64,000 nt of DNA from Propionispira arboris (GTDB lineage: Bacteria; Bacillota; Negativicutes; Selenomonadales; Selenomonadaceae), in NCBI RefSeq assembly GCF_900109225.1, contig NZ_FNZK01000013.1, positions 62,001-126,000 on the forward strand, read 5' to 3'. Below the pieces are notes generated by a model that did no database searches, had not been told where the DNA came from, and saw only the letters and a list, made by a program, of their open reading frames with translations. Shown here piece after piece: positions 30,612 to 54,829 of this stretch; position 1 is the first letter of the stretch, and every line of letters starts with the position of its first letter. Made by a program: the position numbers and the translations under genes.

Positions 30612-31931
30612 TTATTTTGCCTTGAGGTCAAAAATTTGTCGTTCCCCATAAACACCCCATGCATCAATAGCGCTTTTAAGTTCCTTATTTTTACTGTCTT
30701 TACAAGCTTCTTTAAGCGATACGCCTTTCATCACAGCATCAATACCTTGCCTGAATGCTTTGCCTCCGGCAGTAGGACCTTGTGGATGTCCAATTACTGC
30801 ACCACCGGCAGCTATAATTACATCCTTGCCAAATTTGTGTATAAGCTCTTCAATATGGCCCTGCGTTGTTCCGCCTCCCGGCATTGGCATCATTGGCTTA
30901 ATGTGCTGCCACGGAGTCAAACAAGCATAACCTGCCTGGATAAAGGTATCCATTGTCAGCGGGAATTTTCCATAAGGACTCAAGACAATCCCCATATCGA
31001 GACCAGCAAGACGAGGCAGCTTTGAGCATACGAGACTGGCCGACATACCTGACCATGGTGATTCATATAAAGCTCCCTGCATATCACAATGAGACAATAT
31101 TGGAACATTGATGTCCGGATCATCTGCCAGCATCCTGCAAGCATCCATTCCAACCGGCCATGCATTTATCATTAACGCATTTGCCCCAGCATCAATTGCC
31201 CGAAGAGCATTGTCCCGCAATTTTTCTGTTCTATCTGTGATATTAAAGGTATAAAGTGTTTTTTCACCTTTTTCTTCATCCGCAGATTTCAATGCTGCCA
31301 TAACAGCTTTGACTCTGTCGACCAAATGGCAGTGATCCGGATCGGCTGTCAATTCGTCATCTTTTATGATATCTACGCCGCCTAATGCGATCGAATGAGC
31401 AAGCTCTGCTGTTTGCTTCGGATTCAAACCAATACACGGTTTGATCATTGTATTTACCAAAGGTCTGTCATGTACATTCAATAAATTTCGTATTCCCTCT
31501 ATGCCAAATTTAGCACCTTTAAATTCTTTTAAAAACTTATGTGGAAATTCCAAATCTAACAATTTCAATTTGCCCATGCTTGAAATATTACCAATTACAG
31601 TTGTAAACATCATAGCAAATTGAGCACCAAAATTATGTGTTGGAAATGCCAATCGTAGAATAAAATGTCTTTCTGTTACATCCGCAGGATACGAATCGGA
31701 GTAAGCTGGAACCTCATAAATTCCAACCACGCGACCAAGATGTTTTTCTCTTAATGCATGCGTTTCGCCAGGTACAGCAACCCAAGTGCCAGTAGTCTGT
31801 TCAACAGCCAATGCTGCGGCATATTTAACAGCTTCCATTGATTTCGCATTTGCCACATAATATGTTGCGATTAAATATTTTTCATCTTCTAAACCATCAG
31901 GAAATTGCATAAACAAAGGATCAATATACAT
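30612..31931 (-). CDS. RuBisCO-like protein (form IV), operon 1
   Basis: 439 residues with the large-subunit fold. The carbamylation/metal triad is intact: Lys190, Asp192, Glu193 in GGVDIIKDDE. Lys164 in TMIKPCIGL matches catalytic Lys175 of plant RuBisCO, but the next lysine (Lys177) is Cys. His281 matches His294, Arg295 is replaced by Cys282, and Lys322 in the loop-6 position (SPYGKF) is kept. The phosphate loops MPGGGTTQG and AAGGAVIGHPQG are present. It is therefore not a CO2-fixing RuBisCO but an enolase/decarboxylase-type relative. It is last in a PTS-dehydrogenase operon, recalling the apiose-pathway RLPs (OiaC/OiaX) that cleave 3-oxo-isoapionate 4-phosphate. Confidence 0.92.
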   Translation of the reverse strand: MYIDPLFMQFPDGLEDEKYLIATYYVANAKSMEAVKYAAALAVEQTTGTWVAVPGETHALREKHLGRVVGIYEVPAYSDSYPADVTERHFILRLAFPTHNFGAQFAMMFTTVIGNISSMGKLKLLDLEFPHKFLKEFKGAKFGIEGIRNLLNVHDRPLVNTMIKPCIGLNPKQTAELAHSIALGGVDIIKDDELTADPDHCHLVDRVKAVMAALKSADEEKGEKTLYTFNITDRTEKLRDNALRAIDAGANALMINAWPVGMDACRMLADDPDINVPILSHCDMQGALYESPWSGMSASLVCSKLPRLAGLDMGIVLSPYGKFPLTMDTFIQAGYACLTPWQHIKPMMPMPGGGTTQGHIEELIHKFGKDVIIAAGGAVIGHPQGPTAGGKAFRQGIDAVMKGVSLKEACKDSKNKELKSAIDAWGVYGERQIFDLKAK

Positions 31932-32005
31932 AAGATAACCCCCTTTTTTATTTTAAACTATAGCGTTTCATGACGGGCCCATCAAAAAACAAACTATGGT
32001 TTTTG

Positions 32006-32983
32006 TTAAGATAAAACGGCCTTCCCTAACGCATGATCAATAATCAATATGTCCGTCAGGCCACCTGTTAGAACTCCCTTTAATGCATAGACTTTAGATA
32101 CTCCAGAAGCTACCAGGATTTTTGTTTTAATTTTTTTAAACACATCAAGTTCTATTCCTATGGTACGATGTTTTAAAGATGTACTGCATTCTTTCCCTTG
32201 ACCATCAATAAACCTAAGACTGATATCGCCAACGGCACTTTTCTTCTTTAATTCAAGAATTTCGTTATCGAGAAGATACCCACCCTGTTTGTACAATAAT
32301 GAATCAACATTCGGGGAAAAAGCTCCTACGCTGCTTAAAGATATGCTGATATGCTTGAACATTTCATAGATCATGCTTACATATTTTTCAGCTTTTATAG
32401 AATCTACGGTTCTACTATTACTCATCAGCCCTTCTGCCAGCAAAGAATAATTTTGCCCCCCAAAAGCCATTGAGATCCTTGCCCCCAGTGCCATTACATC
32501 TAAATCTGGATGACATCCAGAAAGACTTCCATGCATTGTAACAAAACTGGCATTGACTTTTTGACAAGGATTCAAATACTGTATTAGCTCATACATAGTT
32601 TGCCCCCAGCTAAGTCCTAAAACATCTTTCTCTGTAATAATTCTTTGGACATATCTTGCTCCTTCCAGTGCGACGAGTTTTCTCATATTTGCTTTATTTT
32701 CTACAAGATTTCCAAGTTCTTTCATTGGCGGTACAACAATTACATCTTTCAAATTAAAACTATTTTTTATTTGTTCTTCCATTTCAAGACAATCCATATA
32801 GGGATTTCGAATTACAAATTCCACAATCCCATCTTGTTTAGCTTTTTTAATTAAACGAGATACGGTTGATATAGATATATTCAATATATCAGCAATTTCA
32901 TTTTGTGATTTGTCTTGAAAGTAATAAAGATATGCGGTTTTAAATACTAAAAAGGTGGATTGATTATATACTGACGACTGCAT
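32006..32983 (-). CDS. SorC/DeoR-family sugar-phosphate regulator
   Basis: 325 residues. The N-terminal HTH reads KSQNEIADILNISISTVSRLIKKA (split as QNEIADILNISIST and VSRLIKKA), followed by the SorC sugar-binding domain (DVLGLSWGQTMYELI, VASGVSKVYALKGVLTGGLTDILI). SorC proteins respond to phosphorylated sugars. It lies within operon 1 between the PHP and RLP genes, giving this operon a second, substrate-type control in addition to LevR/sigma-54. Confidence 0.9.
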   Translation of the reverse strand: MQSSVYNQSTFLVFKTAYLYYFQDKSQNEIADILNISISTVSRLIKKAKQDGIVEFVIRNPYMDCLEMEEQIKNSFNLKDVIVVPPMKELGNLVENKANMRKLVALEGARYVQRIITEKDVLGLSWGQTMYELIQYLNPCQKVNASFVTMHGSLSGCHPDLDVMALGARISMAFGGQNYSLLAEGLMSNSRTVDSIKAEKYVSMIYEMFKHISISLSSVGAFSPNVDSLLYKQGGYLLDNEILELKKKSAVGDISLRFIDGQGKECSTSLKHRTIGIELDVFKKIKTKILVASGVSKVYALKGVLTGGLTDILIIDHALGKAVLS

Positions 32984-33118
32984 TTTTAAACCGCTCCCCG
33001 TTTTGAAGGTCCCTTCAATTTCTATTTTACATTAAAAGAAAATAACAACAATATAGAAAATATTTTCAATAAAGAAATAATATTCTTTTTAATATTATTT
33101 CTTTTTATCACTCTTTCA

Positions 33119-33982
33119 TCAAAGCCTCACCCTGCTTTTTAACTGTTCAACTATGGTATAAGGACTGCTCGTAATCTGTCCCATTAAAATTTGGGGTTTC
33201 ATTTTTCCATGAAAATCACTACCCGCTGTAATTAATATTTTTTTATCCTGTGCAAATTTTTGATAGTGCCTTTCCTGCTTTTCATTATGCCAACTTGTAA
33301 ATACTTCAATTCCTGCTAAGCCAAACTTCAGCAGCTCAACAATCAAACCATTTTCCTCTTCCCGCAAACTAGCACCCGGATGCGCCAAAATGGGCACACC
33401 GCCGCATTGCAGAATAAGTTCAATAACCTCTTTTGTGTTGGGAAAATACTGCACCGCATTATAAGGACGTCCATAAATCATCCAATCCTGACAAAAATCA
33501 AGTATTCCATTCGCTTTTCCCCTGTATTTTTCTAACATTTGATTTCCATTATTTCTTGAATCAGTAAAGATTGCTCTTCCAAAAGAAATTGGCAATGGAT
33601 CGGAACTATCTTCCATAACTTTTTCTTTTTCTAAGAAAAAACCCGTTTGATGTAATTTATCTATTTGAGCATCAATATTGTTTTCTCTCGCTTTTTTTAC
33701 TTTTTCGCACAGCTGAATAAGCTCTGGCTTATGATAATCTATATAATAGCCTAAAATGTGGAGCCATTTATTTTCATATATAGAAGAAAATTCACAGCCG
33801 GGTATAACTTCTACATTATACTCGCCCCCCCATTTGACAGCCTCCTCAACACTATCGATCGTATCATGATCCGTTATAGCAATCGCCTGAAGCTTAGCTT
33901 CACTTGCAATTTTCACTATTGCCCAAGAAGAAAACTCTCCGTCGCCGCTTGCTGCCGTGTGCACATGCAAATCAACCGCCAT
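33119..33982 (-). CDS. PHP-domain phosphoesterase
   Basis: 287 residues from the ATG with AAAGGGGTGAAG upstream; a start 20 codons earlier overlaps the dehydrogenase gene and is rejected. PHP metal-site motifs in order: DLHVHTAASGDGE (5-17), AITDHDT, GCEFSS, ILAHPGA and GSDFHGK. The family contains phosphatases and nucleases using two or three metal ions. It sits between a zinc dehydrogenase and the SorC regulator, so it may hydrolyse a sugar phosphate in the pathway; the substrate is unknown. Confidence 0.88.
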   Translation of the reverse strand: MAVDLHVHTAASGDGEFSSWAIVKIASEAKLQAIAITDHDTIDSVEEAVKWGGEYNVEVIPGCEFSSIYENKWLHILGYYIDYHKPELIQLCEKVKKARENNIDAQIDKLHQTGFFLEKEKVMEDSSDPLPISFGRAIFTDSRNNGNQMLEKYRGKANGILDFCQDWMIYGRPYNAVQYFPNTKEVIELILQCGGVPILAHPGASLREEENGLIVELLKFGLAGIEVFTSWHNEKQERHYQKFAQDKKILITAGSDFHGKMKPQILMGQITSSPYTIVEQLKSRVRL

Positions 33983-34032
33983 ATTCTTCACCCCTTTAGT
34001 GTTGTTTGAAACTCGCTCCCATAACTTGGTTA

Positions 34033-35079
34033 TTAGTCCCAAGGCTTCAAAACCACCTTAATCCCAAGTCCTTTTTTTATAATATCGATCCCTTCGGCAA
34101 TATCCTTCAAAGGCAATATATGCGTAACAAATTCGGCAGCTGGTACTTTCCCCTCTGAAATTAAATGGAAGGCCTCTATAAAATCTTTAGGTGCGTAAGC
34201 AAATGCACCATAAATTGCAATTTCATCATAATGAATTCTATTGCTGTTTAAATTTATATGACAATTATTAATTGGCAGCCCGCCAAAAAAACATACTCTG
34301 CCTCTTTTCCTTACCATATCTATGGCTTGTTCTTGAACAAGTCCCACCGGGCAGGCAACAATAGCAGCATCCGCTCCTAAATTATTGGTTTCCGCTAACA
34401 CGATTTCATGAACATCTTGCTGCGAGGAATCCACAAAAACATCAATACTTGTAAACCTTCTTACAAGATCCAATCGGCTCTCATTAATTTCTGACATAAT
34501 CACTTTTTTCGCTCCACGAGCCTTCGCAATTACGGCGTGCAAACAACCAATAGGACCAGCACCAAAAATCAAAACCGTATCGCCCTTGCCTACCCCCATA
34601 TTTTTCTGCGCACATATGACAGAAGCGGTTGTTTCTGCCAGAGGAACCTGCTCCATCGGTAAATTATTCGTTATTTTTATTACACAATCATTCGCTAAAG
34701 CCACTTTAGGAATTGCCACATATTGAGCATACCCCCCAGGTATCGTTGTTCCTAAAAACTCTAACTCTTGGCAGTGATTCCCAAATCCAATTTTGCAATA
34801 ATCACAATGCCCACAAGGAATAATCGGATTGACCGCCACTTTATCCCCTACAGAAAAATCCGATATATTTTTCCCTATACTTTCTATCACACCTGCAACT
34901 TCGTGACCAATGACCTGCGGCGGTATGAGCTTCCCATGACCTACATCAAAGGTTCGAATATCTGATCCGCATAAACCAACGGCCTTAACTTTCACCAAAA
35001 TCCCTTCTTCTGGACATAGCGGCATCGGAATTTCTTGCATCTCAAAATCTTTAGGGCCTTTAAATACAATTGCTTTCAT
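34033..35079 (-). CDS. Zinc-dependent polyol-type dehydrogenase (operon 1)
   Basis: 348 residues of the medium-chain zinc family. Catalytic zinc ligands Cys37 (GLCGSD) and His59-Glu60 (GHE); structural zinc Cys89, Cys92, Cys95, Cys103; Rossmann motif FGAGPIGCLHA near 175. Closest in style to sorbitol, galactitol-1-phosphate and threonine dehydrogenases. Placed after the PTS IIC gene, it probably oxidises the phosphorylated substrate made by the PTS to a keto sugar (acid) phosphate for the RLP. The exact substrate is not readable. Confidence 0.92.
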   Translation of the reverse strand: MKAIVFKGPKDFEMQEIPMPLCPEEGILVKVKAVGLCGSDIRTFDVGHGKLIPPQVIGHEVAGVIESIGKNISDFSVGDKVAVNPIIPCGHCDYCKIGFGNHCQELEFLGTTIPGGYAQYVAIPKVALANDCVIKITNNLPMEQVPLAETTASVICAQKNMGVGKGDTVLIFGAGPIGCLHAVIAKARGAKKVIMSEINESRLDLVRRFTSIDVFVDSSQQDVHEIVLAETNNLGADAAIVACPVGLVQEQAIDMVRKRGRVCFFGGLPINNCHINLNSNRIHYDEIAIYGAFAYAPKDFIEAFHLISEGKVPAAEFVTHILPLKDIAEGIDIIKKGLGIKVVLKPWD

Positions 35080-35175: not shown

Positions 35176-36438
35176 CTACTGTCCAAATAATAAAGACAGG
35201 GGCTTCCATATAAGCCAGGGGATTTGCAGTGTTCCACCATATAAACTACTGATCGTCGTCGTCCCTTCCGGAAATGGAAAACCAACAGCATGCCCCATAA
35301 TTGTATGCACAGGTCCAAAATCTGTTGCAATTAATAAACACAGTGGCACAATTAAAAGACTAATAATTAAAGATCTAAATATATTCCCATTTGTAACAGC
35401 AACAGGAAAGCTTAAAATAAAGGTCAGCATGACAAGATCCGTAAACGGCAGCAGCCGATTTCCTGGAAGAATTAATGACATTAAGACAGCTATCGGAATC
35501 ATTATAATGGCAGTAGCCATAACAGCTGGATTTCCAATAGCGATAGCCGTATCCAGCCCAATATAAAATTCCCTCCCCGGAAATCTGTTTTTTAAAAACT
35601 CTCTTGCCCCTTCAGACAGAGGAATCAATCCTTCCATTAAAATTGCTACCATTCTTGGTAAAATAACCATTACAGCGCCCAGCGTAACACCGGTAGTTAA
35701 AATTTTACCTAAGTCATATTTGGCTAATATTGCCAATATAGAACCAAGAACTAACCCAATAAATAACGGTTCACCGAATATTCCGAATTTATCCTGTACT
35801 TTCTTTTGATCAATGTAAATACTGTTTATACCAGGAACCCTGTCTAAGATTTTGTTAAAAACATACGCAACAGGATACCACCCCACAGTTCCTACATGCG
35901 GAAGCGAAATTCCCGGCAAACCAAAAAATTTCTCCACCAAAGGTGCTGTTATATCCGCAAGCTTTAAAGTTACATACTCACAAATCAAAACGGCCGCGAT
36001 TGTCAAATACCAATTTTCCTGCGTTGAATGATATACAATGGCTCCACAAAACAGCATTTGCCAATAATTCCAGATATCTACATCTGCCGTTTTTGTTTGG
36101 TTAATCGCCAACAAAAATACATTAAATAAAAGAATCAGTGGCATAATCACCGGTACAATTATAGAACCGAAACTAACCGCGGCTGATATTGGCCAGCCAA
36201 CATCAAGAATATCCAGTTGAACTCCCATATTTTTAACCATAGCTTGTGTTACAGGACCTAACGTATTCATCAATACCGAAATAACCATATTGATTCCAAC
36301 AAAACCAACACCAATAATAAGCCCTGCCCTGAAAGCCTTACTAAAGCCCTGCCCTAAAAGCAACCCCAGAACTGTGATAATGATTGGCATCATAACCGCA
36401 GGACCCAAGCCCAAAATAAATTGAATTGCATCTAACAT
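35176..36438 (-). CDS. PTS galactitol-type EIIC permease (operon 1)
   Basis: 420 residues, about ten or eleven membrane helices, with the GatC-family sequences LGQGFSKAFRAGLIIGVGF, GWPISAAVSFGS and FYIGLDTAIAIGNPAVMA. EIIC forms the membrane channel and receives phosphate from EIIB. Directly follows the EIIB gene with a 1-bp gap. The GatC family moves galactitol, pentitols and related polyols. Confidence 0.93.
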   Translation of the reverse strand: MLDAIQFILGLGPAVMMPIIITVLGLLLGQGFSKAFRAGLIIGVGFVGINMVISVLMNTLGPVTQAMVKNMGVQLDILDVGWPISAAVSFGSIIVPVIMPLILLFNVFLLAINQTKTADVDIWNYWQMLFCGAIVYHSTQENWYLTIAAVLICEYVTLKLADITAPLVEKFFGLPGISLPHVGTVGWYPVAYVFNKILDRVPGINSIYIDQKKVQDKFGIFGEPLFIGLVLGSILAILAKYDLGKILTTGVTLGAVMVILPRMVAILMEGLIPLSEGAREFLKNRFPGREFYIGLDTAIAIGNPAVMATAIIMIPIAVLMSLILPGNRLLPFTDLVMLTFILSFPVAVTNGNIFRSLIISLLIVPLCLLIATDFGPVHTIMGHAVGFPFPEGTTTISSLYGGTLQIPWLIWKPLSLLFGQ

Positions 36439-36439
36439 A

Positions 36440-36745
36440 TCAGATCACCCCCAGCGTTTGTTTTAATGCAGTGATAATCTGTTCTTCAACTTTTTCCAAA
36501 CCTACACCCGACAAAAAAGCAATCCCGCTTATAATAGGTATAGTAGTTGTCGTAGAAATTGTCGTAGTTGAAACAATTAAATCCGGTGAAAAAGTATTTA
36601 ATTTAGATTTCACTTCAAGTGATTTACATTGTATAATTTCATATTCAATATTGTTTTTTTTGCACATATTAGCCACACCGTTATGAACAACCGTAGAAGT
36701 TGCAATTCCTGTTCCACATACACACATAATTTTTACTTTTCCCAT
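36440..36745 (-). CDS. PTS galactitol-type EIIB (operon 1)
   Basis: 101 residues. The phospho-acceptor cysteine loop is CVCGTGIATST (Cys10), as in GatB. It carries phosphate from EIIA to the sugar at the EIIC channel. Its start has GGAGGGAG upstream. It is adjacent to EIIA (42 bp) and EIIC (1 bp). Confidence 0.93.
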   Translation of the reverse strand: MGKVKIMCVCGTGIATSTVVHNGVANMCKKNNIEYEIIQCKSLEVKSKLNTFSPDLIVSTTTISTTTTIPIISGIAFLSGVGLEKVEEQIITALKQTLGVI

Positions 36746-36787: not shown

Positions 36788-37261
36788 TTACTCATTCTGG
36801 TTTATTTGATTCACTATATCTATAAACATTTGCCTATCATCACACTTCAACATTTGTTTAATGAGATGAGAGGCTTGAAACAGCGATATCAAATCCTGTA
36901 AAAGCTGCAACTGTTTTTGCGGTTCTGTTAGGGCAAGCATAAAGACAATTTTCACATCAACAGTATTTTCGGGACTCGCCATCAAATTAAATTTTACTGA
37001 ATTTTTCAAAGTAGCAATTGCAATGCTTGGTTTTAGTACATGCTGTATATCTGCATGCGGGATAGCAACACCAAATTCTTTTGTTTGCAATCCTGTCGGG
37101 TAAACATCTTCTCTTTCAATGAGCGCCTGTAAATAACTCGGTTTTACAATATTCTTTTCCAATAAACAATTTGCTAGCACAGTCATAACATCATATTTAT
37201 TTTCCAATTCCAGATTAAGTACTACTAGTTCAGTGTCCAGTAGATTCACATCTAACAACAT
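36788..37261 (-). CDS. PTS fructose/galactitol-type EIIA (operon 1)
   Basis: 157 residues of the EIIA-2 family, with the phosphorylated histidine in VAIPHADIQH (His69). First gene of operon 1; start ATG with AAGGAGGAGGT immediately upstream. The sigma-54 promoter at 37423-37438 lies about 165 bp upstream. Confidence 0.93.
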   Translation of the reverse strand: MLLDVNLLDTELVVLNLELENKYDVMTVLANCLLEKNIVKPSYLQALIEREDVYPTGLQTKEFGVAIPHADIQHVLKPSIAIATLKNSVKFNLMASPENTVDVKIVFMLALTEPQKQLQLLQDLISLFQASHLIKQMLKCDDRQMFIDIVNQINQNE

Positions 37262-37422: not shown

Positions 37423-37438
37423 TGCAAGTTCCATGCCA
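37423..37438 (-). promoter_or_regulatory. Sigma-54 promoter of RLP operon 1
   Basis: On the minus strand TGGCATGGAACTTGCA matches the -24/-12 pattern TGGCAY-N5-TTGCW exactly. It lies upstream of the PTS EIIA gene, and the LevR-type activator is encoded at the other end of the operon. Confidence 0.85.
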
Positions 37439-37521
37439 GATTTTGGTCAAATTTGTTTTTTTTATTCACTGCCAAATATTCTGATAAGTTTTTAAATTTA
37501 TATTACACATCCTTTCGTTAT

Positions 37522-37799
37522 TCAAAAGATAAATTATAGCCCTATCGAATACAAATATTGAGAGGATCACTATATATGACATTAATCCACTATGTAATAA
37601 TGGGCATAATCTTCCACTCGATGAAATAGATTTACTTTTTAAGAAAATTGACGGATTTTCTTTTATGCGTGGATCAGATCCTACACCCTTTGGATTTCTT
37701 GATGTTTTCTGGAAAAGCGAGAAAGATATTCGCTCTTCTATGAATATTCTCGGCTCTTGCATTATCAAGGAAATCAACGGTTATAAAAACTTTATTTGA
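37522..37799 (+). pseudogene. C-terminal relic of an unrecognised gene
   Basis: The plus strand has a stop-free frame after a TAA, reading TIYDINPLCNNGHNLPLDEI then DLLFKKIDGFSFMRGSDPTP and ending YKNFI-stop. Its composition looks coding but there is no start codon or ribosome binding site. The family is not recognised. It lies just upstream of the sigma-54 promoter, where activator sites would be expected. The interval 37800-37968 shows nothing further. Confidence 0.35.
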
Positions 37800-37968
37800 A
37801 TTCGTTTTTCTTTAGTGTCATATTTGATTATGTCTCTAATTTTTTTGGCCTAAGAACCATATAATTTAACGCTTTTATGAATTTCCAAAAAAAACAATTA
37901 TCTTTGAAAAATCAATAGGGGAAAATCGAATCTAGTTATGAATCGTGAATTTTATTTTATACCATGAA

Positions 37969-38013
37969 AAAGTCATCGAATAGCATACTATGCGTATGCT
38001 ATTCGATGACTTT
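37969..38013. terminator. Perfect 20-bp stem terminator
   Basis: AAAGTCATCGAATAGCATAC and its exact inverse flank a 5-nt loop. On the minus strand the stem ends in TTTTT, 9 bp after the stop at 38022, so it terminates the decayed gene there. Confidence 0.8.
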
Positions 38014-38021
38014 AAATACAA

Positions 38022-38619: not shown

Positions 38620-38639
38620 GCTTGCTAAAACAGCAAAAC

Positions 38640-38816: not shown

Positions 38817-38859
38817 ACTTTTCATATAATAAAACAGGAACGGTCAAAGGTTAGACTTA

Positions 38860-40015: not shown

Positions 40016-40046
40016 AAATACCGTCATATTGCATTAGACGGTATTT
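40016..40046. repeat. Stem-loop next to the IS630 fragment
   Basis: AAATACCGTC and GACGGTATTT form a 10-bp stem 16 bp beyond the IS630-type stop. It may be an insertion-sequence end or a terminator. The rest of 39739-40061 shows no intact gene. Confidence 0.4.
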
Positions 40047-40061
40047 CTCCGCTATGGTTTA

Positions 40062-44714: not shown

Positions 44715-47606
44715 TCACTTGCACTCCAAAATATGGTTTATAAACTCATGCCGATCTGTACACGACATTAATTTTTCCATTAAATTTTGATCAGCCCAGA
44801 CTTGATAAAAAAAACGGAAAACAAGCGAACTTGCTTCTGGTAAAGCAATCATAAATATTTTATCCACAAATTGATCATTTCCCCAGTTAATGGGTTTCTG
44901 CAGCGTGGCAATTGCAATTCCCGGTTTAATAACATGTTTAGCAAAAGTATGTGGGATAGCAATTGTACCAGTCAAATAAGTATTATCCATTCGTTCGCGT
45001 TCGTATATTCCCAGTAAATAGCCTTTTTGCACATAACCATATTTCAATAACAACTGGCTTAGTTCATCCAAAACAACATTTTTAGATTTAAATGTCGCTT
45101 GTGGTAATATAAGCTTATCATCAAAAATTTGATTTAATACTGGAATGCTAGTTTTAACTAAATACTCATTTTGCCCAGCAAACAGTAAATTTCTCAATAA
45201 AGTTTCCCCTTTTTCTTCAAATATTTTATCAATAGATAAAAAAGGAACATTACTAATAGCTGGATCAATGGTACCAATAATTCCAATTAAAAAATTTTCT
45301 TCCTGAATTTTTTTTATTGCATTTATCGCATCCCAATATTTTATAAAGCAAATTGGAATGATCTCAATGTTACTTTGTCTTATTTCTTCTTTAAAATTAT
45401 TTTCAATAAATTTTTTTATTTGTTGCGCTGCACCTTCTCCCGTTATGCAGAGAGTAATTAGAACCGGCTGACCATTATTTATTTTAGGTTTAAAATAATA
45501 ACTTTGATTATCCAAAGTCATATATAAATCTTCCAAAGTCATATTTTGATTAATCGCTGTAAAAGCTGCATCCAGAGCCATAGCTGTATGAACTTTGTTT
45601 ATTGTTCTTGTTGGAATATTGGTTGCTTTTGTTATTAATTCACCAAATGTAATAGCTGACCCCATATCTACAAGAATCAATATACCGTTTCCCATATGGA
45701 TTCGTTCACATAATTCAATAGATCTTTTTAATGCTGTGTCGGTTTTTTCTTCAAAGTCAATATCAACAAAATCAACAAAATTTTGACCAATTAAACTATT
45801 TACAATTTTCGCCATTTCGGATGCAACATGTCCGTGGCTAATAATTATAATATTTACAATTCCATTAGGACTTTTTAGATTAATGGCCTTTTTTCTTAAG
45901 TATAATGCAATAAATCCAGTTTCAGATTCTGGAAATTTGATTTGAAGTTTTTCCTCAGCAAATTTTAAAATTTCTATAGCTGTTAAATATTCATCATGAT
46001 ACTCTTCTTTAATTCTGCTAAGTTCAGGATTAAATATTGGTTTTCCTTGTTTTACTCGTTGAATTGTTGCATGAAGATGTAACGCCAAGCAGTAATAAAA
46101 GCTTTTATCCAATGACCCCAGCCGTTCCTCTGCAATTTCCGACATCTTTGCTACAATACTCGATATTTCATTTCCGACTAAACATGATATATTTTGGGTT
46201 TCCATATTAATATTTATTTTCTGCAAATAACTTGTGGTTCTTTTTAAATGGGTTTCGAGTTCCCTTTCCATAATTTTTCCTATAGTGTTTTGTTCAACGC
46301 CCTGCCTTTTTAATTCCTCAAATCGCTGATCAATAAAACCATAAATTTCATTTGGTAATATATATGAATCCGTATCATCATATATATCGACTTCTTTTCG
46401 TCCCGGTTGAATTGAAATTCCATTATTAATATAGTTTTTTATACCACTATATGTATATTTTTTGCGATATAAACTTTCACACACATCGTTATTAAACTCT
46501 GCCAGACCAATAGTAATACATTTCTTATTCTCATTTACATATTTCAAATAGGCTTTAGCACAAGCCATTTGAATATCACTTCTAAGTTGACCAATATTGC
46601 CGGGACAATTATAGCATAACAGTCCACACACTACATCGGATTTCACATTAATGGGGATGCCAAGTCGTTCAGCTTCCATTCTGAAAAATTCAACAATTAT
46701 TTCATATTTTTCATTTATTGAACGATTATAGAGAGGTGGTAATTCTATAACCATTGGTATTCTTCGTCGAAAAGTAAGGGCAAGTTGAGAATCAAGATCT
46801 TTCGTCGTAGCTCCTATCACCATTACATTAACTTTATGTTCGTTTTCCGATTCCCCCAGTTTGCGAAATACGCCGTTGTCAATAATAGAAAAAAGCATCT
46901 CTTGACCTTCTACTGGCAATCGATGGATTTCATCTAAAAATATTATACCGCCATCAGCTTTTTCAATTAATCCCTTTTTTTCCGTTTCAGCACCAGTATA
47001 GGCTCCCTTAACATGTCCAAATAATTGTGAAAGCAAAAGTTGTGGATTATTAGAATAATCCGCACAATTAAATCGAATTAACGATTTGGGTTTAACTCGT
47101 TCTATCTTTTTAGCAAATTCGAACATAGCCATGGCTAATTGGGATTTACCAGTTCCAGTCTGTCCTATAATTAAAGTATGAAGCCCATTGGGGGGATATA
47201 ATATTGCTGCCTTAGCTTGCATTATTTTTGGGAAAATACTACCATTGAAACCAATAATATGGCAAAATACATCATTATCATTAGTTTGAGTATTCTCATC
47301 AATTTCTTCTATTTCTCCAAGCTCTTTTCTAATAATAGATACAGAAAAGGTAGAAATATCAAAGCCCAAATTTTGAATAGATTTGACTAATTTTCGATCA
47401 GATATATTTTTTTCTTCGCTAATAAATTCCCTTATCTTGTCTTTAAGATAAGGAAGTCGGCGCAGATTATAACTTGGAATATTTAATTGTTTTCTTATCT
47501 TTATAATATTTTGTCTTGATGTTTTCAACATTAAAGCTAAACTGTCATCAGTGTAAGGATTAAATTTATTTTCATTTGCAATAAGCAAACGTAGGTTTTC
47601 TTCCAT
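44715..47606 (-). CDS. LevR/ManR-type sigma-54-dependent PTS activator (for RLP operon 2)
   Basis: 963 residues in the same architecture as the protein at 27182: HTH (1-100); AAA+ domain with GQTGTGKS (148-155), sigma-54 loop GAYTGA (201-206, Tyr in place of Phe) and IFLDEIHRLP; PTS regulation domain (YYCLALHLHATIQRV); EIIA-Man-like ISHGHVASEMA; EIIB-like TLCITGEGAAQQ; EIIA-2-like TIAIPHTFAKH near the end. It lies beyond the ascorbate-type PTS operon whose promoter at 54814 is sigma-54 type, the probable target. The two activators are diverged paralogues, so the loci arose by old duplication or separate acquisition. Confidence 0.93.
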   Translation of the reverse strand: MEENLRLLIANENKFNPYTDDSLALMLKTSRQNIIKIRKQLNIPSYNLRRLPYLKDKIREFISEEKNISDRKLVKSIQNLGFDISTFSVSIIRKELGEIEEIDENTQTNDNDVFCHIIGFNGSIFPKIMQAKAAILYPPNGLHTLIIGQTGTGKSQLAMAMFEFAKKIERVKPKSLIRFNCADYSNNPQLLLSQLFGHVKGAYTGAETEKKGLIEKADGGIIFLDEIHRLPVEGQEMLFSIIDNGVFRKLGESENEHKVNVMVIGATTKDLDSQLALTFRRRIPMVIELPPLYNRSINEKYEIIVEFFRMEAERLGIPINVKSDVVCGLLCYNCPGNIGQLRSDIQMACAKAYLKYVNENKKCITIGLAEFNNDVCESLYRKKYTYSGIKNYINNGISIQPGRKEVDIYDDTDSYILPNEIYGFIDQRFEELKRQGVEQNTIGKIMERELETHLKRTTSYLQKININMETQNISCLVGNEISSIVAKMSEIAEERLGSLDKSFYYCLALHLHATIQRVKQGKPIFNPELSRIKEEYHDEYLTAIEILKFAEEKLQIKFPESETGFIALYLRKKAINLKSPNGIVNIIIISHGHVASEMAKIVNSLIGQNFVDFVDIDFEEKTDTALKRSIELCERIHMGNGILILVDMGSAITFGELITKATNIPTRTINKVHTAMALDAAFTAINQNMTLEDLYMTLDNQSYYFKPKINNGQPVLITLCITGEGAAQQIKKFIENNFKEEIRQSNIEIIPICFIKYWDAINAIKKIQEENFLIGIIGTIDPAISNVPFLSIDKIFEEKGETLLRNLLFAGQNEYLVKTSIPVLNQIFDDKLILPQATFKSKNVVLDELSQLLLKYGYVQKGYLLGIYERERMDNTYLTGTIAIPHTFAKHVIKPGIAIATLQKPINWGNDQFVDKIFMIALPEASSLVFRFFYQVWADQNLMEKLMSCTDRHEFINHILECK

Positions 47607-48167: not shown

Positions 48168-49037
48168 TCAAATACTTCGTTTTATAATCAAACTTCCTTC
48201 TGGAACATTTAATACACTGGCGCTATAAGCACATTTTGCGATTAACAAAAAATAAATATTCTTATATGAATGCAAACCTGCATAATTAGCCTGACCTTTT
48301 GATAACACAATATCATGCTCTTTAATCCATTTTTCGACTATTGCTGATTTTCTATTTGGACCAGTGTCTGGTTCACCATTACCAATTTTTCTAAATTCCA
48401 CATTAGGAATTTCATTCATCCCAATAGATAGTGCTTCTGTCAATGTCACATCGTTAACAAATGGTCCTCCTTTAACAACTAAACTAATTCGAGAAAATGG
48501 CTTATTTCTTAGTGAATTTATTGTTTCCAAAAGTAATTTATCAAATACTATCTCTCCTGCATTGTCCAAAAAATACAAAATAGTATTTGCCGTCAATAAT
48601 TCTTCACGTAAATAGTTAAAATCTCTTGGTAATCGTTTTTTCTTTAAAAACTTCTGAAGTGTTTTGCCAACATTAAAATTTTTATCTGGTCCAAAATCAA
48701 TTATATTGCCAGCTATAGCAGCCAACGTAGCTTTTGCAATTTTCTTATCAGCATCTGTCTGTTTAATTTTCTCTTTGATTGCTTCAATTAACTTCATGGA
48801 TTCTTTATTATTTATATCTTTAATTTGTTTAAACGGATCAGCATTTCCAATTTCACCACGAAAAACAATATTAACCTCATTTTCCAGTTCATCCGATGAA
48901 AGACTCCAATCAATATTTAACAACAATTCCATAATTTTTCTGAGAGTCTTTTCTTGAATAGAGTCTTCAATTTTTAATCTCTTCATAGTGTCTAAAGACT
49001 GTTTTTGCAGGCAAATAAAGCAGGGGAAATTTATCAC
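48168..49037 (-). CDS. DUF89 / ARMT1-like metal-dependent phosphatase
   Basis: 289 residues from the GTG six bases after GAGGAGGAG; the more upstream TTG lies before that site. Family motifs: NFPCFICLQKQ at the start, FLDNAGEIVFDKLL near 165, VVKGGPFVNDVT and VLSKGQANYAGL. DUF89 proteins are metal-dependent phosphatases often acting on damaged or side-product sugar phosphates. As the last gene of the RLP operon 2 region it may remove dead-end phosphates or play the role that the PHP protein has in operon 1. Confidence 0.85.
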   Translation of the reverse strand: MINFPCFICLQKQSLDTMKRLKIEDSIQEKTLRKIMELLLNIDWSLSSDELENEVNIVFRGEIGNADPFKQIKDINNKESMKLIEAIKEKIKQTDADKKIAKATLAAIAGNIIDFGPDKNFNVGKTLQKFLKKKRLPRDFNYLREELLTANTILYFLDNAGEIVFDKLLLETINSLRNKPFSRISLVVKGGPFVNDVTLTEALSIGMNEIPNVEFRKIGNGEPDTGPNRKSAIVEKWIKEHDIVLSKGQANYAGLHSYKNIYFLLIAKCAYSASVLNVPEGSLIIKRSI

Positions 49038-49367
49038 AATATACTCCTCCTCGTACAATAAAATGTTCTCTTAGAACCTCAATATATATAATAATAAGGT
49101 ATTTAGCCTTGTTCTTTTTTTATTTACGTCCACATGATCTCTTCCCCAATATATTGCATGAATCACCAATAACTTTACTGATAATATTTCTTGAAACTTA
49201 CAATAGGGCATATAATTGAACATTATATGCCCTATTGCAAAAGACTTAAGTAACACGATAGACGTGTTATTTAACCTGGATAAGCTAATTGATAATAGAA
49301 AAATCCGTGGATTATTTTCTTAGTGCACTTTTCTTTTCCATTGCTACACAGCCCCCTGTTTTGGTAG

Positions 49368-49463
49368 TTAAATTTTGCTTATTATAAACATAACAAAGAT
49401 ATAAAGAATACCGAGTAAGAATAAGAATTTTGAATCCTTGGATATTAAGCTTTTCGTAGCCAT
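49368..49463 (-). CDS. 31-residue single-pass membrane peptide
   Basis: ATG preceded by AAGGGGTG at 5 nt opens a 31-codon frame: a polar basic start (MATKSLISKDSK), one hydrophobic helix (FLFLLGILYIFVMFIISK) and a stop. It lies between the EIIC gene and DUF89 on the same strand. Good ribosome binding site, positive-inside topology and position argue for a real small protein, perhaps a permease accessory. The rest of 49059-49550 shows nothing else. Confidence 0.5.
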   Translation of the reverse strand: MATKSLISKDSKFLFLLGILYIFVMFIISKI

Positions 49464-49550
49464 AATAACACCCCTTATTTTTTACATTGATGTTGTTGAT
49501 ATTCAGATTATAGCGTTGATTATGCTTATAGTCTGAACAGCTTCAATTGT

Positions 49551-50849
49551 TTAGAACATATATTGTGCTAAACCAAGGAGGTTTCCAATCCAACCTACCA
49601 CTGTACAGACAACCATTTGGTCCCATTCAGCTGTCGTTTGTGCAAAAGCAACCATTGGACCAAGCATTGGGAAGAAAAGCGATCTTCCTAATGTTGCAGT
49701 AAAACCGAAGAACATTGCACCGACTATAGCAGCTTTTTTACCACCGAATTTATTGGCAAAAATAGCTACAACACCGCCGCCAAAGAAATTTTCATAGGTT
49801 ACCATTAATATTGGAACAGTCAGATCAAATCTCATTAAAATAGCCATACTAATAACAGAACAAATCTGAGCAATAACAAAACCAATCAGCAGCGAATTGG
49901 CACCGTATTGAAAAAAAACGGGGCAGTCAAAAGCTGGTATAGCACCGGGAACTAGTTTTGTGGAAATACCTTGGAAAGCAGGTGTTATTTCAGCAATAAA
50001 CATACGAATTCCATAAAGAAGAGCCATTAGACCAGCGGAGAAACCGAATCCTGCAAATATAGCAAACATGATCCAGTTTTTTCCACCACTCAATGTCATA
50101 ACAAAATCTTTTCCTACAATTAGTGACAAGCCCAAATACATAACGGACATAGTTAGAGCCACTGTGATAACAACTTCTTTGAGGAAAGATAAACGTCCGC
50201 TCAATTCAATATCTTCAAAGCTGTCCTTTGGATCCCCTATTTTGCTTCCGATCCAGCTACCGATTAAGGCACAGGAACTGACACCATGTCCAAATGCTAT
50301 AGGAGCACCTCCCGTTAGTACTTTGGTATAGGGTTGAAGCATATAAGGGAACACCACTTGGTATGTCCCGACAATAACGCCGCCGATTAAGATAGCCGTA
50401 GTACTTGCAATACCCAAATAGTTCATCAGTACCGCACAAACACAGATACATGTCCAATGTGACCAATGTCCTGTCAGGTAGATAATTTTCATTTTTGTGA
50501 ATCGCGCAATTAAGATATTTACGACATAAGCTAAACCTAGTGTCAATGCCGCCGCACTCATAACGTTATCATATGAGGCAATAATAGGAACCCTGGTTGC
50601 ACCCTCCAATACATTTGAAGCACCTACAATTTGCAAAGACATTTTTGTAAAAATATCAACTTGAGCACAAATTGCATTAAGCCCGAGTGTGAAAATGGTC
50701 ATCCCTACATAAATTTTAATGACACCTGTCATAACTCTTTCAATGGGTTTCTTTTGGAGAACTAAACCAATAAGACCAACTAATGCCATGACCACCGCAG
50801 CCTGAGTTAAAACCTCGTTAGCTAAAAATTCCATGATTGCACTAACCAT
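49551..50849 (-). CDS. PTS ascorbate-type EIIC permease (UlaA/SgaT family, operon 2)
   Basis: 432 residues with about eleven hydrophobic helices. UlaA-family sequences include VMTGVIKIYVGMTIFTLG, GGAPIAFGHGVSS and PGAIPAFDCPVFFQYG. This family transports ascorbate and related sugar acids with coupled phosphorylation, in contrast to the polyol-type GatC of operon 1. Between it and EIIB lies an ISAs1 fragment (50925-51058). Confidence 0.9.
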   Translation of the reverse strand: MVSAIMEFLANEVLTQAAVVMALVGLIGLVLQKKPIERVMTGVIKIYVGMTIFTLGLNAICAQVDIFTKMSLQIVGASNVLEGATRVPIIASYDNVMSAAALTLGLAYVVNILIARFTKMKIIYLTGHWSHWTCICVCAVLMNYLGIASTTAILIGGVIVGTYQVVFPYMLQPYTKVLTGGAPIAFGHGVSSCALIGSWIGSKIGDPKDSFEDIELSGRLSFLKEVVITVALTMSVMYLGLSLIVGKDFVMTLSGGKNWIMFAIFAGFGFSAGLMALLYGIRMFIAEITPAFQGISTKLVPGAIPAFDCPVFFQYGANSLLIGFVIAQICSVISMAILMRFDLTVPILMVTYENFFGGGVVAIFANKFGGKKAAIVGAMFFGFTATLGRSLFFPMLGPMVAFAQTTAEWDQMVVCTVVGWIGNLLGLAQYMF

Positions 50850-50924
50850 AGTTTTCTTCGACCTCCTCTTTTTATGGGTATCGTAGATTTGTAGTGTTTC
50901 TTCTTTAAAGCAATATTTATTCTA

Positions 50925-51058
50925 ATCATTAGAATATTCTGATATTTATACAAGGTTTTATGGTTATCTTTGAGCGCCACTATGTAATCCGCCTTCCTTT
51001 GCGTATTCAGCGCAACTACCATAACGATCAGTACACTAGAGATTTTCCAGGTTTTCAA
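50925..51058 (-). pseudogene. ISAs1-family transposase fragment
   Basis: Minus strand ALNTQRKADYIVALKDNHKT followed by LYKYQNI matches the middle of ISAs1-type DDE transposases (GDYVLALKGNQ region). Only about 40 codons remain, sitting between EIIB and EIIC of operon 2. Confidence 0.68.
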
Positions 51059-51110
51059 AATATTCTCTTCATGATTTTTGCCTTGATATTACTCTGGCAA
51101 GACAATATTT

Positions 51111-51404
51111 TTAATCAATAACACCAATATCTCTAAGTTTTGATTCAAGTTCCCCCTTTCCGTAAAAATCTTTTATTGCTATAACCGGAATTTTTCCTTC
51201 AAATCTGTCATTCATTTCTTTTTCAAAAGCGCTAGAAGTCACTACTAAAGTAAGATCGTTGGGAACACTCCCCGAATCAACGCATTCGATATTGGAAGAT
51301 ATTTTTTTCTCTTCAAGGATACTTTCCAGAAGAATCTTCAGGAGCAGGGAACTTCCCATTCCGCATCCACAAATACAAGCACCATTTACTTTTTTCCAAG
51401 CCAT
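51111..51404 (-). CDS. PTS ascorbate-type EIIB (SgaB/UlaB family, operon 2)
   Basis: 97 residues; phospho-cysteine loop ACICGCGMGSSLL (Cys12). Carries phosphate from EIIA to the UlaA-type EIIC. Start ATG with AAGGAGGAA upstream. A 290-bp AT-rich gap separates it from EIIA (51405-51694) with no recognised gene. Confidence 0.91.
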   Translation of the reverse strand: MAWKKVNGACICGCGMGSSLLLKILLESILEEKKISSNIECVDSGSVPNDLTLVVTSSAFEKEMNDRFEGKIPVIAIKDFYGKGELESKLRDIGVID

Positions 51405-51694
51405 AATCTATTCCTCCTTATTTAATGTTATTTCTTAAATGCTCAACTTTCATTACGTGTTGGACTTCAAGAATTGAATATACTTAAAGTATCTCATAAA
51501 ATCAGAAATCATCCTCGCCTAATTTTCCAACACCGCAATTAAGTTGAGCTTATATGTTTTTTGTGTTGTTCAATGAAGTTGCTGACCTAGATTGGACAAT
51601 TGCTTTAACGATATCAAAAAAAATGTTTACAAGACGGTTTCGTCTATTTATTGAAAAAAGCTATACTGACGAGTGTCTGCTTTGCCTATTTATA

Positions 51695-52183
51695 TCAAGA
51701 TGGGGCTATTTCTTGCTGCGAAAGTAAAGTTTCGTCAGAGTTAAATATTTTCATGATATCATTTGCAGCCTGAGCACACTTGATCACTTCCAGAATTTTT
51801 TCTTCCTTTAAAATGTTACAAATATCAGCAAGAGCTTCAACATGTCTTTCTTTAGCTGGTGCACTTAAACCCATTACCACATAAACGGGATCATAATTCT
51901 CATGACCAAACTTGACAGGGGTTTTCAGGGTGATCATACACATGGCTACTTTCTTAGCACCGTCTTCCGGTCGAGCATGGGCCAAGGCAAAACCTGGCAT
52001 CAATACTATATATGGACCATACTTTTTAACGTATTTTATCATCCCGTCAACGTAGGAGCTTTCGACATCACCGTTCTCAAATAGTATATTTCCCACTTTT
52101 CTGACTGCTTCTTCCCAATTCTGGCACTCAACTTGCGTACGAATAGTCTTTTCATTTAGATACTTCGTCAAGTTCCCTAACAA
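51695..52183 (-). CDS. PTS ascorbate-type EIIA (UlaC-like, operon 2)
   Basis: 162 residues from a TTG start with GAGGTGGAG upstream. The phospho-histidine is His69 in MPGFALAHARPEDG, the UlaC/SgaA pattern. It follows the RLP gene by 105 bp and supplies phosphate to EIIB. Confidence 0.91.
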   Translation of the reverse strand: MLGNLTKYLNEKTIRTQVECQNWEEAVRKVGNILFENGDVESSYVDGMIKYVKKYGPYIVLMPGFALAHARPEDGAKKVAMCMITLKTPVKFGHENYDPVYVVMGLSAPAKERHVEALADICNILKEEKILEVIKCAQAANDIMKIFNSDETLLSQQEIAPS

Positions 52184-52288: not shown

Positions 52289-53626
52289 TTAAATAGCATA
52301 GAGGTTTTTTAGATTTTCTTCTCCATAAATGCCCCATTTATTAACAGCAACTTCTAACTCTTTATGATCTTTAGCGGCTTCTCTCAGGCTTACACCGTCC
52401 ATACAAGCATCAATAGCCTGACGCAGCGCTTTAGCACCATCTACAGGTCCAGTTGGAAAACCATGCACGGAAGCACCAGCTCCTAACAATACATCATACC
52501 CCGTATCTTGCATAATCGTTGGAATCAATCCTGGTATTACTCCGCCACCAATAAATGGTAATGAAGTTTTTAGATTATAAAACTTGCCTTGACAAATTTG
52601 AATACTACGTATATATTTACTCTGAATATTATCAAATTTACCATAAGGACACTCGATAAGAATAATATCAGCTCCACACATACGCAATAGCTTGAATAGT
52701 ACATTTGAACTTACTCCCTGATACGGGGAAGTTTTCAAAGCACCACCGTAGCAGGTATGAGCCAAGATAGGAACATTAACATCCGGGTCTTCTGCCAATG
52801 ATCTCAGTGCTGACAGACCAATGCCAAAAGCATCTACCATAATCGCATTGGCACCAGCTTTAATAGCTCGCAAGGCATTGTCTTTTAATTTATGAACTTC
52901 ATCCGTGATGTTTACGGTATACATGGTAGTTTCACCTTTAATCTTATCAGCTTTGGCTGCAGCTGCCATATTCAGCTTCACACGATCTTCAAGTTTATTG
53001 AAAGCTCTGTCTCCCGAAATCAGTTCGTCATCCTTAATAATATCCACACCACCTATCGCTGCGTCGTAAAAGAGTTTTGCCCCTACTTCTGGTGTATATC
53101 CTGTGCAAGGTTTGATCATATTGTTTAACAGAGGTCTGTCTTTAACACCCAAGATTTTCCTGATACCGGCTATACCAAATTTAGGTCCTTTGAACTTAGC
53201 AACAAACTTAGCTGGAAAGTCGATATCCAGTAGCCGTAAATATGGCATAGATGTGATATTGCCAGTAATTGTGGCAAATAAAAGAGGCATATTGTCCTCG
53301 ATATTTACTTGAGGAAAACCGATTTTGATTACATAGAAGCGCATATCACGATCAGCTAAGTCCTTTTTCATATAGGTAAAATTTTCATAATCAGGTACTT
53401 CAAAAACAGAGAGAGTTTTAGCAGCATATTTTGCTCTAACCTCGTCTGTCTCTGCTTCTACATCAGTCCAAGACCCTGTGGTTTGCTCTATGCCAATGCT
53501 GGCTGCTTTAATAATCGGGTCTTCGTCCTTTTCAGCGCCAATCAGATACGTGGCAACACAGTAATCATCTAAATTAATTCCTTCAGTCATTGGGTTTAAT
53601 AGTGGGCTATACAACCTGTTCATCAT
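52289..53626 (-). CDS. RuBisCO-like protein (form IV), operon 2
   Basis: 445 residues, start ATG-ATG after AGGAGGAA. Metal/carbamate triad Lys198, Asp200, Glu201 in GGVDIIKDDE; Lys172 in NMIKPCTGY matches catalytic Lys175 and the following position is again Cys; His290 (AHTCYGGAL) matches His294, Arg295 is replaced by Thr291; Lys330 (CPYGKF) is the loop-6 lysine. The phosphate loops IGGGVIPG and GAGASVHGFPTG differ from those of the operon 1 protein (GAGASVHG against AAGGAVIG), suggesting related but different substrates or reactions. It lies between the dehydrogenase and the PTS genes. Confidence 0.92.
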   Translation of the reverse strand: MMNRLYSPLLNPMTEGINLDDYCVATYLIGAEKDEDPIIKAASIGIEQTTGSWTDVEAETDEVRAKYAAKTLSVFEVPDYENFTYMKKDLADRDMRFYVIKIGFPQVNIEDNMPLLFATITGNITSMPYLRLLDIDFPAKFVAKFKGPKFGIAGIRKILGVKDRPLLNNMIKPCTGYTPEVGAKLFYDAAIGGVDIIKDDELISGDRAFNKLEDRVKLNMAAAAKADKIKGETTMYTVNITDEVHKLKDNALRAIKAGANAIMVDAFGIGLSALRSLAEDPDVNVPILAHTCYGGALKTSPYQGVSSNVLFKLLRMCGADIILIECPYGKFDNIQSKYIRSIQICQGKFYNLKTSLPFIGGGVIPGLIPTIMQDTGYDVLLGAGASVHGFPTGPVDGAKALRQAIDACMDGVSLREAAKDHKELEVAVNKWGIYGEENLKNLYAI

Positions 53627-53704
53627 AATTTTTTCCTCCTAATTTTTATTTATTTATTTATTAAAACCATAAGCAAATAAAGAATGGCCATTTCCCATAT
53701 TCAC

Positions 53705-54757
53705 TTACGGATTTATAACAACCTTCAATACTTTTCCCGATTCGGCCAGAGCCATGGCTTGATCGAAATCATCCATTTTCATTTTTGTTACAAGTTTCGA
53801 TAAGTCAATTTTATTTTGAGTAATTAGCTCGATAGCCTTAAAGAAGTGATGGGGACGAGAAATATACGTTCCATGTAAGGTAAGCTGACTGTAATGCAAA
53901 ATATTGCTGTCCAGTTGAATCATACGGTTTTTGTCAGGAAGCCCGCCAAAAAAAACCACATGTCCTCCTTTGCGGACATAGCTGAATGCCTGTTCCTGTA
54001 CAGCTTTTACTGAACATGCTACGATCACAATATCTGCACCTCTCCCATTTGTAACCTTTTTGATAACATCTACCAGGTTTTCCTTCGTTACGTTGACTAC
54101 AATATTCGGCGAAACTGCCGCTGCAACTAATTCCAGCCTTTCTTCAAATACATCAGCAATAATTGTAGTTCCAATACCGTTTAGCTTCAGATTGGCTATA
54201 TGGAGGGCGCCAATTGGTCCTGCTCCGATTATTACGGCCGTATCATTGGAATCGAATGTAATGTTATCATGTGAATTCATTACCGTTGTCAGAGGCTCGG
54301 CTAAAGCCGCTACATCAATATCAACATTATCACTAAGCTTTTTAACCGGACCTTTTTCAATAAACAGACGAGGTACTGCAACATACTCTGCCAAACCGCC
54401 AGGAAAATCTACAGGCCCATTACCCAGACACTTAAGATCAGGGCAAAGATTTTCTTGTCCTTTTTTACAGAAATAACATTCACCACATGATGCAGTTGAC
54501 CCCACAGCAACCTTATCGCCGACCTTATAGTCTGCGTGTAAAGTATTGCCAACATCCTCAACTACTCCGGTAATTTCGTGCCCCATAATGACAGGGTATT
54601 GCTTTATTTTGCCACTGCCATTGCGGATAGTCCTGATATCAGATCCGCAGAGACCACATGCACTCACTTTTAATAAAAATCCGTCAGATGGACATTTTGG
54701 TACAGCAATCTCGCCAACTCTTACTTCATTTGGTCCTGCTAATAAAACTGCCTTCAT
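53705..54757 (-). CDS. Zinc-dependent polyol-type dehydrogenase (operon 2)
   Basis: 350 residues. Catalytic zinc residues Cys37 (GLCGSD) and His60-Glu61 (GHE), structural zinc Cys91, Cys94, Cys97, Cys105, Rossmann motif IGAGPIGALHIANL near 178. Paralogue of the operon 1 enzyme. As first gene after the sigma-54 promoter it should oxidise the phosphorylated sugar (acid) delivered by the PTS before the RLP step. Confidence 0.92.
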   Translation of the reverse strand: MKAVLLAGPNEVRVGEIAVPKCPSDGFLLKVSACGLCGSDIRTIRNGSGKIKQYPVIMGHEITGVVEDVGNTLHADYKVGDKVAVGSTASCGECYFCKKGQENLCPDLKCLGNGPVDFPGGLAEYVAVPRLFIEKGPVKKLSDNVDIDVAALAEPLTTVMNSHDNITFDSNDTAVIIGAGPIGALHIANLKLNGIGTTIIADVFEERLELVAAAVSPNIVVNVTKENLVDVIKKVTNGRGADIVIVACSVKAVQEQAFSYVRKGGHVVFFGGLPDKNRMIQLDSNILHYSQLTLHGTYISRPHHFFKAIELITQNKIDLSKLVTKMKMDDFDQAMALAESGKVLKVVINP

Positions 54758-54813
54758 ATTGAACCCTCTCCTAATTGTAATATTTTTTTCTTAATGTTCT
54801 GCATATTTATATA

Positions 54814-54829
54814 TGCAATTTCAATGCCA
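54814..54829 (-). promoter_or_regulatory. Sigma-54 promoter of RLP operon 2
   Basis: On the minus strand TGGCATTGAAATTGCA fits TGGCAY-N5-TTGCW, 57 bp before the dehydrogenase start. It matches the operon 1 promoter in 12 of 16 positions. Confidence 0.86.

Follow-up and report, generated by a model that had tools for sequence, protein, structure and literature searches.

Few reactions are known for the RuBisCO-like proteins (RLPs). OiaX and OiaC of the D-apionate pathways act on a 3-oxo-acid 4-phosphate that is the 2-hydroxymethyl analogue of 3-oxo-tetronate-4-phosphate (PMC6302742), and an RLP of Rhodospirillum rubrum is a 5-methylthioribulose-1-phosphate isomerase (PMC6302742). Bacteria are also known to reach dihydroxyacetone phosphate (DHAP) from threonate by way of 3-oxo-tetronate-4-phosphate itself, using other enzymes (PMC12540250). 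In the window analysed here, the whole 64,000 nucleotide stretch of Propionispira arboris contig NZ_FNZK01000013.1 (positions 62,001 to 126,000), there are two operons, A and B, in each of which an RLP gene stands with a phosphotransferase system (PTS) and a zinc-dependent dehydrogenase. The balance of the evidence leans towards each operon being a catabolic route in which PTS phosphorylation is followed by dehydrogenation to a 2-oxo-1-phosphate and by an RLP reaction, probably a decarboxylation, at a retained CO2 site.

All of the genes of both operons are on the minus strand. Operon A is transcribed in the order PTS EIIA (36788..37261; PF00359 1.6e-33), EIIB (36440..36745; PF02302 3.6e-10), EIIC of the galactitol (GAT) type (35176..36438; PF03611 2.4e-90), Zn-dependent dehydrogenase 1 (34033..35079; PF08240, PF00107), a PHP-domain protein that is probably a phosphatase (33119..34042; PF02811 2.9e-11), a SorC/DeoR-type regulator with a sugar-phosphate-type effector domain (32006..32983; PF04198 1.2e-52), and RLP1, of 439 aa (30612..31931; PF00016 1.4e-49, PF02788). 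The order in operon B is Zn-dependent dehydrogenase 2 (53705..54757; PF08240, PF00107), RLP2, of 445 aa (52289..53626; PF00016 7.8e-48, PF02788), EIIA (51695..52183; PF00359 1.4e-31), EIIB (51111..51404; PF02302 2.2e-10), EIIC of the ascorbate (UlaA) type (49551..50849; PF03611 5.3e-85), and a DUF89/ARMT1-like damage-control phosphatase (48168..49058; PF01937 1.5e-47). Two operons of this make-up, with PHP or DUF89 accessories, had been described in the earlier note, and every gene that it named is present. Both lie within the 30612-54829 range given there, but not as one continuous pair, as 37466-44600 is taken up by unrelated genes (a carotenoid biosynthesis protein, a CrtC-like protein, an HTH/transposase-like protein and an AEC-type transporter).

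The EIIC of each operon exceeds the PF03611 gathering cut-off and is accompanied by EIIA and EIIB, which makes both systems members of the EIIC-GAT PTS group. Since neither EIIC reaches its NCBIfam subfamily cut-off (431.7 bits against 542.2 for the galactitol-specific TIGR00827 in operon A, 352.9 bits against 380 for the ascorbate-specific NF006919 in operon B), "galactitol" and "ascorbate" are used here for the type of EIIC and not for its substrate. The closest NCBIfam models to the other enzymes are likewise below their cut-offs, being L-threonine 3-dehydrogenase for both dehydrogenases, together with IolM for dehydrogenase 1, and 3',5'-nucleoside bisphosphate phosphatase for the PHP protein.

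The best evidence that these genes make up one pathway is the exchange of parts among related loci. The context of the main RLP group was counted in 82 loci, 13 with a PTS and 29 with a kinase, uncorrected for kinship. Where there is no PTS, there are usually FGGY/GlpK-family kinases or a PF09370/UPF0261 module; a PTS and a kinase share a locus in only 1 of the 82, and a PTS and PF09370/UPF0261 in none of the 82. Of the 13 PTS loci, 12 have a recognised dehydrogenase, as do 24 of the 69 others (Fisher p 1.3e-4, again with kinship uncorrected), and this enzyme can be of the Zn type (the window, L005, L007, L008, L153), GlpA/B/C (L004, where GlpA and GlpB exceed their NCBIfam cut-offs), GlpA-like with a DUF1667-type protein (L026, L018, L023), or of the 2-hydroxyacid type (L006, L033, L059, L073). 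The phosphatase-family neighbours have varied folds as well, including PHP, HAD-Cof, HAD-IIA, HAD_2 and DUF89, with a protein of the 2-phosphosulfolactate-phosphatase (ComB) family adjoining the RLP in Syntrophomonas-like loci; PHP proteins adjoin RLPs repeatedly. That unrelated families fill matching slots argues that phosphorylation, oxidation, RLP action and dephosphorylation belong to a single pathway, for which we infer the order of the steps. The proposal of the earlier note that the PTS is the source of phosphate for the RLP substrate is upheld to this extent: the module is real, recurrent and conserved, and kinases swap with the PTS beside related RLPs, as they should if the phosphate comes from the PTS.

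The pairing itself recurs in many anaerobes of unrelated lineages. Among 80 named loci collected with relatives of the window RLPs, a galactitol-type PTS adjoins the RLP in L003-L008, L026, L033, L046, L059 and L073, and L066 has EIIA/EIIB at the edge of the locus. EIIC-GAT genes were counted in the whole genomes behind 29 of the loci; one lies near the RLP in 11 of these 29, where 0.30 would be expected (P ~2e-16, the loci not being fully independent), and the pairing is therefore no local accident. This neighbourhood survey removes the objection, raised in the earlier note against its own proposal, that PTS and RLP genes might never co-occur elsewhere. Behind L004, L033, L059 and L073 (genomes G307, G327, G332 and G333) the genome has no EIIC-GAT other than the RLP-linked one, and the operon also carries EI and HPr. 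There is no dedicated EI or HPr in the window operons, and one EI (PF05524) is encoded elsewhere in the genome. This genome (G000, 4.26 Mb) has 17 EIIC-GAT permeases in all, the biggest set among the genomes counted.

At least six changes are needed to account for the association with a PTS on a tree of 92 RLPs built by maximum likelihood. The lineages concerned are the RLP1 clade, L059/L073, the second RLP of L026/L046, L138, the short RLPs of L140/L142, and RLP2. The RLP1 of the window is 99% identical to its counterpart in P. raffinosivorans DSM 20765 (L003). When 398 genomes of the phylum were searched, an RLP2 with 62% identity turned up in L153, from another family, in an operon of the order RLP2-DH-EIIA-EIIB-UlaA-LevR2-HPr-EI-HAD phosphatase, where DH is the dehydrogenase; this is operon B with an HAD gene in place of DUF89.

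RLP1 and RLP2 are 46% identical to each other, are the sole PF00016 proteins in the genome, and match PF02788 and PF00016 over their whole length, which places both in the RuBisCO superfamily. The AlphaFold2 model of RLP2 (pLDDT 91.9) can be superposed along its entire length on RuBisCOs and RLPs with Z of 43-49, the best match being MtnW (2zvi, Z 48.8); this does not discriminate function. The active sites were aligned with MtnW, OiaX/OiaC-type and form I references, and are numbered here as in spinach. Both window proteins keep Glu60, Thr65 (Ser in RLP2), Trp66, Asn123, Lys175, Lys201, Asp203, Glu204, His294, Lys334 and Gly403, while Gly404 is Ala in RLP2. In both, Lys177 is replaced by Cys, Arg295 by Cys or Thr, Ser379 by Gly and His327 by a hydrophobic residue; with these four residues changed, neither is a bona fide RuBisCO of forms I-III. 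Judged from the aligned residues, the Mg-carbamate machinery and first phosphate site are predicted to be largely intact and the second phosphate site lost, so that a substrate with a single phosphate would be expected. Glu60, Asn123 and Lys334 are near-invariant among 35 relatives, and the Glu60-Lys334 pair, Glu47 and Lys330 by the numbering of RLP2 itself, is the part of the site that handles CO2 in RuBisCO.

In the proposed pathway EIIABC would import a polyol or sugar acid and phosphorylate a terminal hydroxyl, in keeping with PTS chemistry, and the Zn dehydrogenase would turn a secondary hydroxyl near the phosphate into a keto group. The RLP, with its Mg2+-carbamate site, would then enolise the 2-oxo-1-phosphate, most likely for the removal of a carboxyl group, or else for the making or breaking of an adjacent C-C bond; carboxyl removal is favoured because the Glu60/Lys334 pair is kept. 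The PHP or DUF89 phosphatase may dephosphorylate the product or destroy a stray phosphate ester. As a guess for operon B, threonate or erythronate would become tetronate-4-phosphate, then 3-oxo-tetronate-4-phosphate, and finally DHAP and CO2. The model for OtnC (NF043034) has ten class II aldolase-family matches in the window's own genome, all of them under its cut-off.

Several observations weigh against this pathway. The retained Glu60/Lys334 pair is no proof of CO2 chemistry. A recognised dehydrogenase is missing from about half of the kinase loci, and in 25 RLP loci PF09370/UPF0261 genes take the place of both PTS and kinase. The counts of PTS, kinase and dehydrogenase are not phylogenetically independent, and an independent-pairs test of PTS with dehydrogenase had too few pairs. 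The strongest difficulty comes from relatives of RLP2, about 52% identical, that lie between glpA and glpK in L131-L136 (genomes G169, G136, G144, G053, G072 and G066; six Negativicutes of three family codes). The gene order there is glpA-RLP-glpK-glpF-glpB-glpC(-HAD)-glpP, where glpF encodes an MIP channel and the HAD protein is often HAD-Cof, and GlpK, GlpA and GlpC all exceed curated cut-offs. The ketone expected in these operons is DHAP, which has no carboxylate, so that decarboxylation is excluded, though it could be enolised or carboxylated. A more far-reaching reading, less likely than not, is that the PTS-fed enzyme uses a sugar monophosphate new to RLPs for CO2 or C-C bond chemistry, be it decarboxylation, carboxylation or a retro-Claisen hydrolysis, and that members of this enzyme group in the glpA-RLP-glpK-glpF-glpB-glpC operons act on a triose- or tetrulose-phosphate in glycerol metabolism.

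The main rival, less probable but a serious possibility, is that the RLP is a keto-shifting isomerase: the PTS or kinase and the dehydrogenase would convert a polyol to a ketose-1-phosphate, whose carbonyl would be moved along the chain by the RLP to give a form suited to central metabolism. The R. rubrum isomerase gives a precedent for this among RLPs (PMC6302742), 2-oxo-1-phosphates are the products of GlpA-type dehydrogenases, and RLP2 relatives are found within the glycerol operons. There are also class II aldolases in L005-L007, L022, L033 and L138, the last with a protein of the triose-phosphate isomerase (TPI) family. However, Glu60 and Lys334 are near-invariant in the RLP group though not obviously required for isomerisation; they are absent from MtnW and from the L137-L139 clade, and it is the latter that has TPI and aldolase genes alongside its PTS. 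The 2-hydroxyacid dehydrogenases of L006, L033, L059 and L073 point, moreover, to sugar acids.

It is unlikely that the window RLPs are equivalents of OiaX/OiaC acting on 3-oxo-isoapionate-4-phosphate, derived from isoapionate or apiitol imported by the PTS, and the branched-chain substrate suggested in the earlier note is not borne out. Lys334 is shared with the OiaX/OiaC-type references, whose substrate is a 3-oxo-acid 4-phosphate (PMC6302742). The NCBIfam OiaX model, however, gives 213 bits for RLP1 and 194.4 for RLP2 against a cut-off of 700, and the Arg295 that those references keep is Cys or Thr in the window. The four-carbon acid sugar kinase (OiaK) that adjoins the reference RLPs of L097-L099 is absent from both window operons, and on the tree of 92 the reference RLPs are on long branches outside both window clades. 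OiaX identity was rejected on the model score, the neighbouring genes and the loss of Arg295.

That the RLPs are methionine-salvage enolases (MtnW) with the PTS genes as mere neighbours is highly improbable, for although the MtnW models are the closest in NCBIfam, 2zvi is the closest structure and mtnA is present in the genome, the scores of RLP1 and RLP2 are under the cut-offs (372.7 and 334.4 bits against 409, 318.1 and 289 against 513.6), the position of Lys98, the catalytic base of MtnW, which is Lys in the MtnW references, is Asn in RLP1 (N115) and RLP2 (N123), no acireductone dioxygenase (ARD, MtnD) family protein was found in the genome, there are no mtn genes by the RLPs, and the PTS linkage recurs. 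The scores, the Asn and the missing dioxygenase led to the rejection of MtnW identity, and equally disfavour the 2,3-diketo-5-methylthiopentyl-1-phosphate enolase activity that the earlier note had allowed might overturn its proposal. By these comparisons RLP1 and RLP2 are classed as RuBisCO-superfamily members that are neither MtnW, OiaX nor bona fide RuBisCO.

The preferred pathway, PTS phosphorylation followed by oxidation and RLP action, also appears to have its own regulators. A LevR-type gene follows each operon in the window, LevR1 at 27182..30229 and LevR2 at 44715..47606, both on the minus strand and both encoding sigma54-interacting AAA+ activators with PRD, EIIA-man and EIIA_2 domains (PF00158, PF00874, PF03610, PF00359). 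Homologues of LevR1 are within the corresponding RLP operons of L005, L006, L007, L022 and L033, and a homologue of LevR2 is within the matching operon of L153. Upstream of operon A there is a putative sigma54 -24/-12 site, TGGCATGGAACTTGCA (37423..37438, minus strand), and upstream of operon B another, TGGCATTGAAATTGCA (54814..54829, minus strand), each with 1 mismatch to the consensus. Sites of the operon A type precede the related operons in L003, L005 and L033, and those of the operon B type precede the operon in L141 and L153. At two mismatches, matches across the window are no more frequent than chance; with a stricter pattern there are 8 against ~0.09 expected from background in 8.2 kb of promoter regions from the window and related operons, some of these loci being close relatives. 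The domains, together with a -24/-12 sequence match (not a mapped promoter) at the target operon, identify both proteins as LevR-type, and LevR1 is likely to be the activator of operon A and LevR2 that of operon B. Homologues of the SorC regulator adjoin more than 30 relatives of RLP1. The two LevR activators, the SorC regulator and the two -24/-12 sites belong to the RLP systems. The LevR-type activators would read the phosphorylation state of the PTS and switch the operon on, with SorC perhaps responding to a phosphorylated intermediate of the operon A pathway.

Directly downstream of LevR2, the AEC-type membrane transport protein (window 43654-44601) may or may not be part of operon B. Operon B is loosely packed, with several intergenic gaps of ~260-560 bp (window 48168-52183); no RNA element or repeat was found behind these, Rfam giving one tRNA only and there being no direct repeats of at least 20 bases.

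Other contexts were seen in the survey. The Syntrophomonas-like loci (L037-L041, L044, L154-L156, L158) have a GlpP-type gene of the glycerol-3-phosphate antiterminator family, the RLP, two PF09370 (PEP hydrolase-like) genes and UPF0261, often with a 2-phosphosulfolactate-phosphatase-family gene and with neither kinase nor PTS. A Thorarchaeota RLP (L072:5652-9810) adjoins formate-THF (tetrahydrofolate) ligase, FolD and FtcD/cyclohydrolase genes and an FGGY kinase. The short RLPs of L140 (L140:5809-11261) and L142, of 379 aa and with KDDH replacing KDDE, adjoin cupin and Cys/Met-metabolism PLP genes, as for a methylthioadenosine-isoprenoid-type shunt, and have galactitol-type EIIABC directly adjacent. 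In a congeneric genome (G001 contig 12, L144) there is a short-type RLP by a cupin gene, the third RLP of that genome; the window genome has two RLPs only.

A large group of RLPs, mostly from anaerobes, is now tied to a logic of phosphorylation, oxidation, RLP action and, usually, dephosphorylation. Candidate RLPs become assayable because their substrate can be generated in situ by the dehydrogenase, and the PTS with its regulator offers a genetic handle on the pathway. Should the RLP turn out to handle CO2 on a substrate with one phosphate, this would bear on the relation of the carboxylase chemistry of RuBisCO to older sugar catabolism. No description joining an RLP with a PTS, galactitol or glycerol kinase was found in the literature searched, from which most subscription journals were absent, leaving novelty unproven.

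MtnW is the closest described protein by profile and fold, has a monophosphate substrate and is followed by a phosphatase (MtnX); the window proteins differ in the Asn for Lys98, in the retained Glu60 and Lys334, and in having no methionine-salvage neighbours. The Ula (L-ascorbate) and Gat (galactitol) pathways have the same types of EIIC. In Ula the PTS is followed by the decarboxylase UlaD, and in Gat by the Zn polyol-phosphate dehydrogenase GatD, whereas the window operons have no UlaG, UlaD or tagatose aldolase, place an RLP at a later step, and have EIICs under the subfamily cut-offs. The R. rubrum RLP also acts on a ketose-1-phosphate, but it is tied to sulfur salvage, and the comparison with it is by description and not by sequence; the short RLPs of L140/L142 look more like its context. 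The threonate route has a substrate of the kind proposed for operon B and yields DHAP and CO2, as the candidate reaction would, the equivalence being hypothetical; there, oxidation and isomerisation precede an ATP kinase and a decarboxylase of class II aldolase fold, whereas here the PTS would come first and the RLP last. In the D-apionate pathways (Carter et al. 2018, as described in PMC6302742), which are likewise routes of carbohydrate breakdown, the substrate of the RLP is a phosphorylated 3-oxo compound and Lys334 is kept as in the window, but it is a four-carbon acid sugar kinase and not a PTS that provides the phosphate, and the window RLPs, far under the OiaX cut-off and without Arg295, stand apart in the tree.

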